A stretch of DNA of 64,000 bases from Azonexus sp. R2A61 (lineage in GTDB: Bacteria > Pseudomonadota > Gammaproteobacteria > Burkholderiales > Rhodocyclaceae). The notes beneath the pieces are model-generated. The model saw only the letters and a list, made by a program, of their open reading frames with translations. It made no database searches and had not been told where the DNA came from. Made by a program: the position numbers and the translations under genes. The stretch spans positions 186,001-250,000 of the forward strand of contig NZ_JACBFO010000001.1 of the NCBI RefSeq assembly GCF_021401135.1, given 5' to 3'. Below, piece by piece: positions 1-1,914 of this stretch (positions are counted from its first letter, which is position 1; every line of letters begins with the position of its first letter).

Positions 1-570
1 GTGGTCCCAGCGGGGATATTGAGCCTGTATGGCACACCGCTCGATGTTGCTGGCCACGTCGCTGAAGCGGTCGGGGCGATCGTGCAATGCGATTTGCGCG
101 CCCGTACGTTGCGGTTCTTGCCGCGGTATCCCGTTAAGCCGTGGCGCTGGATGGATGCAGATGTAACCCCAGATCTCGTCATTCCATCGGCAGCGTGTGA
201 ATCGATCGATCTGCGCCCAGTGATTCGGCCAGATTACAACCGCGTGGTCGTATCCGGCACACTGGCTGGCGTTAGCGGTCTCGTCACAATTGCAGGATCT
301 GCCGGGGATAAACCTGCTCAACCTGTTGTTCATCCACTTATTACTCATGGGGTCGCCGCACGTCAGCGTGGTGAGTCGATTCTCGGGGCGAGTGGTAACG
401 GCACCGAAGTGGCGATATCAATGCAAATTATGGATTCGGTGGGTCTCGTTGATATCGGTCGGTTTATCGAGTTCATCGATGCCGGCCGTGTGCGTCGCGG
501 GGTCGTCCGCGCTAACCGAATTTCCACTGGACGCGCCGTTCGGCAACAGCTAACTGTGGAGTCTTCATGA
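1..570 (+). CDS. Phage tail or baseplate hub-like protein, C-terminal part
   Basis: The reading frame is open at the window edge, so the 189 codons seen are probably only the C-terminal part of a longer protein. I see no catalytic motif. A segment with RYPVKPW followed by a short acidic/proline stretch resembles tail-tip proteins of B3/D3112-type transposable siphophages as I remember them; this is recognition from memory, not a domain hit. The gene ends in an ATGA overlap with the next phage gene, so the two are probably translationally coupled. A late structural role fits the position near the right end of a transposable phage. Confidence 0.5.
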   Translation: MVPAGILSLYGTPLDVAGHVAEAVGAIVQCDLRARTLRFLPRYPVKPWRWMDADVTPDLVIPSAACESIDLRPVIRPDYNRVVVSGTLAGVSGLVTIAGSAGDKPAQPVVHPLITHGVAARQRGESILGASGNGTEVAISMQIMDSVGLVDIGRFIEFIDAGRVRRGVVRANRISTGRAVRQQLTVESS

Positions 571-794
571 TCACCACAAATATTTGGCGACGGCTGAGGG
601 ATCTCACGGCTGGGGATCCGCTACAGATAGGCATCATCGTTGACGCTGGCCTGTACGGCGTAACGATCGAGCTGCCGACCGGTGATCAACTTCAGGTGCG
701 TGGCACAGGCACCGTTGGCGACCGCGTGTTTTTTAGATCTGGTGTCGTCGAGGGGCCTGCGCCAGATCTACCCATCGAAGTTATTGAAATATGA
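567..794 (+). CDS. Small phage protein, 75 aa, function unknown
   Basis: This short gene starts inside the stop of the preceding tail-like gene (ATGA overlap) and belongs to the same late phage transcript. The product is 75 residues, rich in beta-branched and glycine residues, with no transmembrane segment and no cysteine pair. It looks like a small all-beta protein. I do not recognise a family with confidence; small genes of this kind commonly follow tail-tip genes in transposable siphophages. It is the last structural-type gene before the structured intergenic segment and com. Confidence 0.6.
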   Translation: MITTNIWRRLRDLTAGDPLQIGIIVDAGLYGVTIELPTGDQLQVRGTGTVGDRVFFRSGVVEGPAPDLPIEVIEI

Positions 795-800
795 AAAAAG

Positions 801-919
801 ACGGTGCGACCACCCGGCGTGTTGCAGCACGCCGGGTAGCCACCTCCTGCAGACGAGCCTGCATTTGGCCGAGGCACCGTGCTGTGCACACAGCGGGCCG
901 AAGGCTACATCCTTCAGGC
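801..919 (+). ncRNA. Candidate structured RNA between phage late gene and com
   Basis: This gene-free stretch can fold almost end to end. An outer 7-bp stem pairs ACGGTGC (801-807) with GCACCGT (874-880). Inside it lies a perfect 10-bp hairpin, ACCCGGCGTG (812-821) with CACGCCGGGT (828-837) and loop TTGCAG, plus a smaller stem 848-852/859-863. Two more hairpins follow: 881-885/890-894, and 897-904/911-919 with a bulged A. No T-run follows the strong hairpin, so a plain terminator is unlikely. It could be the 5' leader of com-dam, a target of the RNA-binding Com protein, or a separate phage RNA. The pairing is visible; the function is inference. Confidence 0.4.
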
Positions 920-925
920 GTATTC

Positions 926-1090
926 ATGGAAGAAATCAGATGCAAAAACTGCAATAAGAAACTGGCTGAGGCGGACTACAATCGTCTCGAAATCAAGTGT
1001 CCGCGATGCGGCACGTTCAATGTTCTGAAGGCCACCGAGCCTCCCATCAAGGAGAAACCTCAATGGCCTCGCTCTCTAAAAAATCGATGA
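926..1090 (+). CDS. com: Com-like zinc-finger translational regulator (Mu Com family)
   Basis: The 54-residue product has two CxxC pairs, Cys6/Cys9 and Cys25/Cys28, in a rubredoxin-like knuckle, followed by a basic tail. Length, the N-terminal RCKNCNK motif and position match phage Mu Com, a small zinc protein that binds mRNA and activates translation of the overlapping DNA-modification gene mom. Here the overlapping downstream gene is an adenine methylase. The ATG at 926 is chosen because it opens directly on the zinc motif; the frame also extends upstream through the structured RNA without similarity. com and the methylase overlap by 28 nt, as com and mom do in Mu. Confidence 0.85.
   Translation: MEEIRCKNCNKKLAEADYNRLEIKCPRCGTFNVLKATEPPIKEKPQWPRSLKNR
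1029..1069 (+). promoter_or_regulatory. Hairpin that can hide the methylase ribosome site and start codon
   Basis: Within the 3' end of com, AGGCCA (1029-1034) pairs with TGGCCT (1064-1069), GAG (1037-1039) with CTC (1059-1061), and CTCC (1041-1044) with GGAG (1051-1054). The last GGAG is the Shine-Dalgarno sequence of the methylase, and the outer stem contains part of its ATG at 1063-1065. Translation should therefore be blocked until the hairpin is opened. In Mu, Com relieves a comparable block on mom. The pairing is read directly from the sequence; control by Com is inference. Confidence 0.55.
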
Positions 1091-1914
1091 CAACCATTTG
1101 CCCGACGTCGGCCGATACGCCGACCCGGGCATTGCTTCGCTACTTCGGCGGCAAGTGGATGATCGCCCCCTGGGTGATTTCCCATTTGCCGCCGCACCGG
1201 GTGTATGTGGAACCGTTCGGTGGCGCGGCCAGCGTGATGTTGCGCAAGCCGCGCAGTCAGATCGAGGTCTACAACGACCTGGACGAAGAGATTGTCGGGA
1301 TCTTTCGCGTTGTTCAAGATCCTGTTCAATGCCAGGCGCTGCTGCGCCGTTTGCGTCGCACCCCCTACGCTCGACGCGAGTTCGAACAGGCATTCAAAGC
1401 CAGCTCGGACTCGGTGATTCGAGCGCAGCGGGCGATCACACGGGCCTACCTTGCTTTCCACCACCAAGCGCTGTTCAATTCCCGGACAACGACGTTCGCC
1501 GATGCGCGGCACCGCACCGGAACGCGTAGCAAGGCTCATGAGTGGGCGAGTTATCCGCGCAGCCTGGCGACGATCAACCGGCGGCTACGGGGTGTAACCA
1601 TCGACTGTCAGCCCGCGGCAGCCGTGATTCGGGCGCAGGACACGCCCGACACCCTGTTCTTCGTCGATCCACCCTACATGCCTTCGACACGCTCGAAGTC
1701 GGGGTACAGATGCGAGTTGACCGAGGTCGAGCACATTGCTCTTCTGGAGCAGCTACGCTCAGTTCAGGGATTGGTTGTGCTGGCGGGGTATCCGTCTGAC
1801 CTTTACGACCAGGTACTGCACGACTGGAAGCGCGTCGAGCGGCCGCATCGAGCCGCCGGCAGCAAACGCCTCCGTACCGAGGTGTTGTGGATCTCACCAC
1901 GGGCGGTAGGTTAG
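1063..1914 (+). CDS. dam: Phage DNA N6-adenine methylase (Dam, D12 class)
   Basis: The 283-residue product transfers a methyl group from S-adenosylmethionine to adenine N6 in DNA. Motifs are clear: the AdoMet-binding YFGGK at residues 27-31, EPFGG at 50-54, and the catalytic DPPY at 202-205. The start at 1063 has GGAG at 1051-1054 at good spacing and overlaps the end of com. In phage Mu this slot holds mom, an unrelated modification enzyme, so here a Dam-type enzyme appears to have taken its place under the same control layout. It probably protects phage DNA from host restriction. The recognition sequence cannot be read from the gene. Confidence 0.9.
   Translation: MASLSKKSMTTICPTSADTPTRALLRYFGGKWMIAPWVISHLPPHRVYVEPFGGAASVMLRKPRSQIEVYNDLDEEIVGIFRVVQDPVQCQALLRRLRRTPYARREFEQAFKASSDSVIRAQRAITRAYLAFHHQALFNSRTTTFADARHRTGTRSKAHEWASYPRSLATINRRLRGVTIDCQPAAAVIRAQDTPDTLFFVDPPYMPSTRSKSGYRCELTEVEHIALLEQLRSVQGLVVLAGYPSDLYDQVLHDWKRVERPHRAAGSKRLRTEVLWISPRAVG

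Follow-up and report, generated by a model that had tools for sequence, protein, structure and literature searches.

A probable Com-dependent translational switch ahead of a D12 adenine methylase gene in a Mu-type prophage of Azonexus, preceded by a structured leader RNA

Genes at the locus and their prophage setting

The stretch of DNA analyzed here (the window) comprises 64,000 nucleotides of Azonexus sp. R2A61 (NCBI RefSeq assembly GCF_021401135.1, contig NZ_JACBFO010000001.1, positions 186,001 to 250,000 of the forward strand). It opens among the tail genes of a prophage, which are followed by a small gene for a zinc-ribbon protein of the Com family and a gene for a D12-class adenine DNA methyltransferase (Table 1). 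The Com protein scored 43.3 bits against PF10122 (curated cut-off 22.9) and the methylase 75.6 bits against PF02086 (cut-off 22), both above their cut-offs. The methylase ATG (1063-1065) lies within com, whose stop codon ends at position 1090, giving an overlap of 28 nt (1063-1090). An earlier reading of this DNA, made without database searches (the sequence-only reading), had described a Com-like zinc protein overlapping a modification gene by 28 nt, and the coordinates and the PF10122 match bear this out; its assignment of the modification gene as a D12 adenine methylase likewise agrees with the PF02086 match and the DPPY motif seen in the translation. Its wording "Dam-type" stands at the level of the D12 class, but not at that of Dam itself, as the protein reached 55 bits against the NCBIfam dam model TIGR00571 versus a cut-off of 114.85. 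The methylase did not match the Mom profile PF25680, PF02086 being its sole Pfam match at E<=0.1, and Mu Mom itself does match PF25680.

Table 1. Coordinates of genes and RNA features in the window, with the evidence for each
Feature	Position	Strand	Product or form	Evidence and remarks
Tail protein gene	1-570			PHROG 6079; opens the window, inside the prophage tail genes
Gene	567-794			PHROG 5076 match; precedes a 131-nt gap, then com
Structured leader RNA	796-908	+	113 nt, four helices	Immediately 5' of com; distinct from the Com target
com	926-1090	+	54 aa, zinc-ribbon protein	PF10122, E 2.5e-11; PHROG 6417 "translational regulator", E 2.1e-18
Com box hairpin	1029-1042	+	AGGC-[CACCGA]-GCCU, holding CC-ACC-GAG	Inside com; sequence, scan of com loci, motif in the passages of PMC6483171 drawn on
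13-bp hairpin	1029-1069	+	Masks GGAG and part of the ATG	Fold prediction; mutually exclusive with the Com box
Predicted alternative Mu-like start-hiding stem, 1044-1047/1063-1066	1044-1066	+		Constrained fold with the Com box formed
Methylase ribosome-binding site	1051-1054	+	GGAG	Sequence
D12-class N6-adenine DNA methyltransferase gene	1063-1914	+	283 aa	PF02086 MethyltransfD12, E 6.9e-21; PHROG 56, E 1.4e-53; DPPY in translation

Upstream on the same contig we found genes matching a transposase (PHROG 310, E 3.3e-106), a DNA transposition protein (PHROG 296, E 4.5e-55) and a late transcriptional activator (PHROG 532, E 1.9e-24), families that go by the names MuA, MuB and Mor/C. By its transposition and late-activator genes the prophage is a Mu-type transposable phage. 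It splits a host acyltransferase/SGNH gene, the C-terminal part of which lies 3' of the methylase at about 2060 of the window, as seen from profile matches, and the N-terminal part of which was located by eye some 39 kb before the window opens (about 1000-1450 of locus L259). Because the two parts flank the prophage, com and the methylase gene lie near its right end, the position of com-mom in Mu. A plasmid search with positions 560-1200 gave no match.

The Com box and the genes that follow com

Com from a prophage of Haemophilus sputorum binds, in vitro, the motif CC(N)2-3GAG in a hairpin loop (Nowacka 2019, PMC6483171; statements on this paper, here and below, refer to the passages of it drawn on). 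The RNAs selected there by SELEX had a stem of 3-4 nt of variable sequence, always with a C-G closing pair; the Mu Com target is given as GAAUGCCUGCGAGCAUCCCACGGAG, and another group is reported in the same paper to have seen Com binding an RNA duplex, not a hairpin. The window carries GAAGGCCACCGAGCCUCC at 1027-1044, in which a stem of AGGC/GCCU encloses the loop CACCGA, and the rule that describes this Com box also recovered the Mu site, identical to the stretch printed in PMC6483171. The distance from the end of the loop to the start codon of the next gene is 24 nt in the window and 20 in Mu.

To place this element in a wider sample, loci were drawn from phages, IMG/VR, GTDB genomes and the Azonexus genome itself, with two sets of relatives entered as the best 80 of 444 and the best 80 of 368. 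Among the 259 sequences, including the window and two copies of it, 239 carried com by profile; L031 was excluded before clustering, as its first zinc knuckle was not CxxC by rule, and the remaining com loci formed 118 clusters (80% identity over 150 nt). These clusters are non-independent draws, and D12 methylases are over-represented among them because the sample was partly seeded with D12. A further 27 com-less D12 loci, meaning loci with no com found in the DNA examined, were kept unclustered (L038 and L039 are alike upstream), and ten of these were found via the leader RNA treated below.

Under a loose rule (at least 4 bp, loop C-N2-3-GA) a Com box was present in 114 of the 118 com clusters, with C-G closing in 106, and the four clusters without one were L050, L078, L080 and L247; the best of 63 other loop patterns reached 34 clusters only. 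Since the loose rule selects for pairing, sites were also picked by sequence alone. The motif CC(N)2-3GAG occurred at 251 sites in 115 clusters, and three further stem pairs could form at 152 of them, against a mean of 43.8 and a maximum of 61 in 1000 shuffles in which the 3' arms were swapped, and against 64 of 647 sites (9.9%) in 2028 control segments from the same loci. In the 152 paired sites, where the closing pair is set by the choice of motif, the second pair was G-C in 138, and the outer two pairs varied while pairing was kept (third pair: CG 71, GC 56, TA 14, AT 6, GU/UG 5; fourth pair: AT 66, GC 58, GU 21, TA 5, UG 2). The stem ends at 4 bp, and in 144 of the 152 sites an A-C or C-C mismatch follows.

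The consensus of these boxes, GA-NNGC-C-N2-3-GA-GCNN-C, was found in full in 17 of the 2028 control segments, in 62 of the 69 com-D12 clusters and in none of the 27 com-less D12 loci (Fisher p 1e-17 for the latter two); by the loose rule the corresponding figures for D12 loci were 68 of 69 and 2 of 27 (L032 and L041). The Com box goes with com rather than with the methylase. Because the target motif is conserved and covarying in com loci, and absent as a full consensus from the 27 com-less D12 loci, these comparisons make Com control of the methylase in the window likely.

Two other explanations of a conserved hairpin within com were weighed against these data. The tail of Com might be kept as protein, with the hairpin as a by-product, and short peptide motifs such as ERHRAS are, by eye, common to many Com tails. 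Yet synonymous codon resampling destroys the boxes: in the first 71 regions a strict box was present in 57 com tails, compared with a mean of 3.3 and a maximum of 9 over 200 resamplings. Strict boxes moreover fall in all three com reading phases (78, 60 and 7) and therefore encode different peptides, and some stand outside com, past its stop codon, in L076, L087, L090, L091 and L094. Coding constraint is thereby largely refuted, and we give it hardly any credence. Action of Com on DNA as a transcription factor would suit the name given to the family in some annotation, and zinc ribbons often bind DNA, but the conserved element here is a covarying hairpin with a known RNA target (PMC6483171), and we consider such a role very unlikely.

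Two strict Com boxes occur in 44 of the 118 clusters (L081, L072, L048 and L075 among others) and three in one, and these doubled boxes recall the bipartite motif of the published SELEX (PMC6483171).

By sequence similarity, the gene downstream of com was a D12 methylase in 69 of the 118 clusters, a divergent D12-like gene in 2, an N6/N4 methylase in 26, a C5 methylase in 6, a GNAT plus ABC-like protein in 6 and Mom in 4, with 3 other or unclear and 2 with none readable. Pfam was consulted for one or two representatives of each of the N6/N4, C5, GNAT and Mom groups; the ABC match of the GNAT-type partner fell just below its cut-off. The divergent pair was named by eye. Beyond the D12 class, the full-consensus box was present in 23 of 26 N6/N4, 6 of 6 C5, 5 of 6 GNAT-type, 4 of 4 Mom and 2 of 2 divergent clusters, and in 3 of the remaining 5. 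The sequence-only reading had seen the logic of Com as transplanted onto another enzyme, which suggests a one-off event; this does not fit a sample, albeit partly seeded with D12, in which 101 of 118 clusters have a methylase gene after com (103 including the two divergent D12-like genes), nor a com-methylase pair already annotated in phage B3.

In that Pseudomonas phage, as in the window, com (ORF47) is followed by an overlapping adenine methylase gene (ORF48), and both a Com box and the leader are present; it differs in that the pair lies within the tail genes, and its record annotates no RNA element. Because the B3 annotation already places Com next to an adenine methylase, the locus described here is a variant of a known switch. 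The record of Chuche likewise has a DNA methyltransferase after an annotated Com, its region (L050) being one of those without a box by rule, and the records of TJ1 and Bise annotate the methylase and have com as hypothetical or unannotated. FluMu-type prophages also share a methylase in mom's place: Drozdz is said to have reported in 2012 that the Hin1523/Hia5 methylases occupy the mom position in FluMu-type Mu-like prophages, and these methylases are reportedly divergent. The divergent D12-like partners in our sample (L069 and L090) may be of this kind. One Mannheimia Mu-like phage lacks a typical com-mom module, according to the passage of PMC4553209 drawn on. A Com box in methylase operons is not described in the passages drawn on from PMC8541194, PMC4553209, PMC2647930, PMC3089641 and PMC10085705 (the last of which deals with hammerhead ribozymes), and neither a Com box across methylase operons nor the leader RNA was found in print among open-licence PMC papers. 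Within that literature, what would be new is that a conserved, covarying Com box recurs ahead of five kinds of enzyme and that, by sequence comparison, its occurrence depends on com.

In L083, L085, L092 and L093 the box precedes a small conserved ORF (~50-60 aa, ending VVTV) that is followed by a GNAT/ABC-like protein, and L125 and L173 also carry the larger GNAT/ABC-like gene; the small ORF and the GNAT/ABC-like gene possibly form another modification system.

Pairing around the methylase start and the proposed switch

The sequence-only reading had proposed that an imperfect 13-bp hairpin at 1029-1069 pairs GGAG and part of the ATG, and the predicted fold agrees (6+3+4 = 13 pairs), joining 1029-1034 to 1064-1069, 1037-1039 to 1059-1061 and 1041-1044 to the GGAG at 1051-1054. 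Folded on its own, the 41-nt stretch reached -15.7 kcal/mol, with 2 of 200 shuffles as good and a z of -3.0 that is flattering, because the stretch was chosen for its folding; within a 121-nt context the same hairpin appeared in the minimum-energy fold, the stretch overall being unremarkable (z -0.83, 37/200). The outer stem, 1029-1034/1064-1069, which that reading had singled out, fared poorly when close relatives were compared: by eye, AGGCC is retained and the start contexts differ, and the six-pair stem AGGCCA/UGGCCU is not fully retained in L051, L053, L044, L054, L057 and L066. Across 103 clusters, pairing of the 5' arm with the start was only slightly above that of swapped partners (z -2.3, 45/5000). 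Given its poor conservation, we do not take the outer stem to be the chief regulatory feature. Pairing of the ribosome site could be followed by eye in the same relatives, with CUCC/GGAG retained in the close relatives L051 and L053 and variants in L044 (CUCU/AGAG), L054 (CUCUU/AAGAG) and L057 (CUCUCG/CGAGAG); a MAFFT alignment of eight close relatives was misaligned near insertions and was left out of the counts. The 13-bp hairpin competes with the Com target and is not itself that target.

Pairing between the box and the start region was assessed in 103 clusters, 15 of the 118 having been dropped as without a box 14-50 nt ahead of a readable start; in these, the loop most commonly ends 22 or 25 nt ahead of the start. 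The 3' side of the box and the bases that follow pair with the stretch from ribosome site to start better than do swapped partners (z -5.4, 0/5000). In the D12 class (63 clusters) the 3' side of the box pairs with the ribosome site (z -4.7, 0/5000) and not with the start (z -0.2). Pairing with the start was found in the N6/N4 class (z -2.3, 49/5000), where that with the ribosome site was not clear (z -0.7), and in the remaining 17 loci, including Mom (z -2.7, 14/5000).

Predicted access was computed for 98 loci, 5 of the 103 having no recognized ribosome site. When the box was forced to form, mean predicted access of the start codon rose by 0.226, versus 0.132 in swapped controls (0.101-0.171 over 20 swaps), and the gain in access of the ribosome site did not exceed that in controls across the same 98 loci (0.029 versus 0.031). 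In the window, forcing the box in silico lowered access of the ATG from 0.35 to 0.21 and raised that of the ribosome site only from 0.34 to 0.43, the start not being freed because 1044-1047 then pairs with 1063-1066. A simple model in which the box opens the ribosome site therefore fails both in the window and in the 98 loci, where only mean start-codon access exceeded controls. Start access in Mu was 0.00 even with the box formed, and Com must therefore do more than hold the box. In Mu, Com binding melts the inhibitory structure, according to PMC6483171 citing earlier work, an effect that the truncated Com used in that study did not show.

We consider it probable that the locus, close to the right end of the prophage, holds a translational switch of the Mu type that depends on Com and has a D12 adenine methylase where Mu has mom. 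In the mechanism we propose, the com-methylase transcript would fold with the ribosome site and start of the methylase paired, and Com, made first, would bind the Com box towards the 3' end of its own reading frame. As the box uses 1029-1032 and 1039-1042, its formation excludes the fold in which those positions are paired to the ribosome site and the start. The closed box, together with further melting by Com as in Mu, would then free the methylase start, for which Com would also have to melt the stem 1044-1047/1063-1066. The methylase would thus be made late, once Com has accumulated, and the phage DNA would be methylated against host restriction.

This arrangement shares with Mu com-mom the position of com directly upstream of, and overlapping, the modification gene, a Com-box hairpin with a like loop and a C-G closing pair just ahead of the start, a start predicted to be hidden by pairing, and the setting at the right end of a transposable phage. 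The two differ in the enzyme, which in Mu is Mom (PF25680), and in the hiding structure, which in Mu is a stem beside the box, whereas here the box and the 13-bp hiding fold share bases. They differ also in that the Mu locus (L046) has no leader by our model, whereas a 113-nt structured leader stands ahead of com in the window.

Plain translational coupling, by which ribosomes reading com would run through the hairpin and open the methylase start without binding of the Com protein, could make use of much the same layout, given that box and hairpin lie inside com, that the com stop ends 25 nt past the methylase ATG, and that in 98 of 103 clusters com runs into the following gene, most often by 29-35 nt. 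It leaves unexplained, however, the fixed loop CN2-3GA, the C-G closing pair, the conserved flanks and the covarying outer stem pairs, as well as the agreement with the motif that SELEX gave for Com (PMC6483171), and it sits badly with the five loci named above in which com ends ahead of the box. We therefore regard coupling as improbable and favor a switch that depends on Com itself. Comparative data of this kind give a Com target that can be recognized by sequence in more than 100 phage clusters, and the naturally occurring covarying variants allow tests of Com-RNA recognition. To our knowledge, experiments on Com have dealt almost exclusively with Mu mom RNA. The distribution of the box suggests that the switch goes with the regulator and not with one enzyme, and it bears on the tight gating of broad modification enzymes, in which the gate would be kept and the enzyme exchanged.

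A structured leader RNA upstream of com

The leader at 796-908 was supported by an alignment of 65 sequences, with the structure drawn on the window, in which 85.7% of cells were paired and 20 of 25 pairs had changed on both sides; its covariation was 0.400, versus 0.110 when shuffled and at most 0.097 when slid. The window, itself among the 65 sequences used to build the model, scored 111.9 bits. At E<=0.01 the leader was found in 99 of the 118 com clusters, many of which had been used in building the model, and by class in 64 of 69 D12, 22 of 26 N6/N4, 5 of 6 C5, 5 of 6 GNAT-type, none of 4 Mom, none of 2 divergent and 3 of the 5 remaining clusters. It was also present in 9 of the 16 com-less D12 loci scanned, four of the nine having been in the alignment, and at L048, L049, L045, L047 and L291 among others.

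In sampled genomes the leader occurred in 28 of 300 from the order and in 6 of 200 from the phylum, the Azonexus genome being counted in both. Among fourteen genome matches taken as com-less, L284 does have com. Judged by eye, the leader is directly followed in ten by a D12 frame or a D12-like sequence, in L293 by an apparent methylase fragment, and in the weak matches L287 and L288 (E above 1e-4) by neither.

In an alignment of 99 sequences to the model, one that leans to that model, the eleven strongest covarying pairs among all column pairs lay in the proposed helices. With its 3' flank the leader of the window folds as proposed (z -2.8, 4/200 shuffles as good), and the 113 nt alone prefer a pairing of 803-806 with 841-844 (z -3.9). 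Position 805 covaries with 842 as well (48.8), though less than with 876 (107.9), its partner in the helix; this hints at two leader states but may be a clade effect. Pairing of the leader's 3' end with the next ribosome site was weak (z -2.0, 104/5000). An Rfam scan of 700-1200 gave no family at gathering score, with symR (E 0.13) as the only match, below cut-off, and a scan of eight related loci gave no match for the leader.

The leader may be a more novel object than the Com switch. One reading, which we judge to have an even chance of being right, is that of a two-layer RNA cassette, in which an undescribed leader would set or sense the use of the operon, and Com with its box would then act as a gate. 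The cassette would be exchanged among D12, N6/N4 and C5 methylases and GNAT-type partners, the leader occurring also without Com before D12. If this reading holds, the covarying alternative pairing of 805 with 842 or 876 would make the leader a two-state switch. Should the leader prove to be what it seems, it would be a new regulatory RNA ahead of phage modification genes.

Annotated "hypothetical proteins" at L049 1379-1459 (B3 ORF46) and L047 1382-1594 (Mana) overlie the leader RNA, and these short proteins may be spurious. In the Azonexus genome a second com-D12 pair, at G000:C7:536432-536551 (L044), likewise has both a box and a leader, and a third leader, at G000:C6:60386-60499 (L291), lies directly ahead of a com-less D12-like gene. 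Such further copies make cross-talk between prophages possible.
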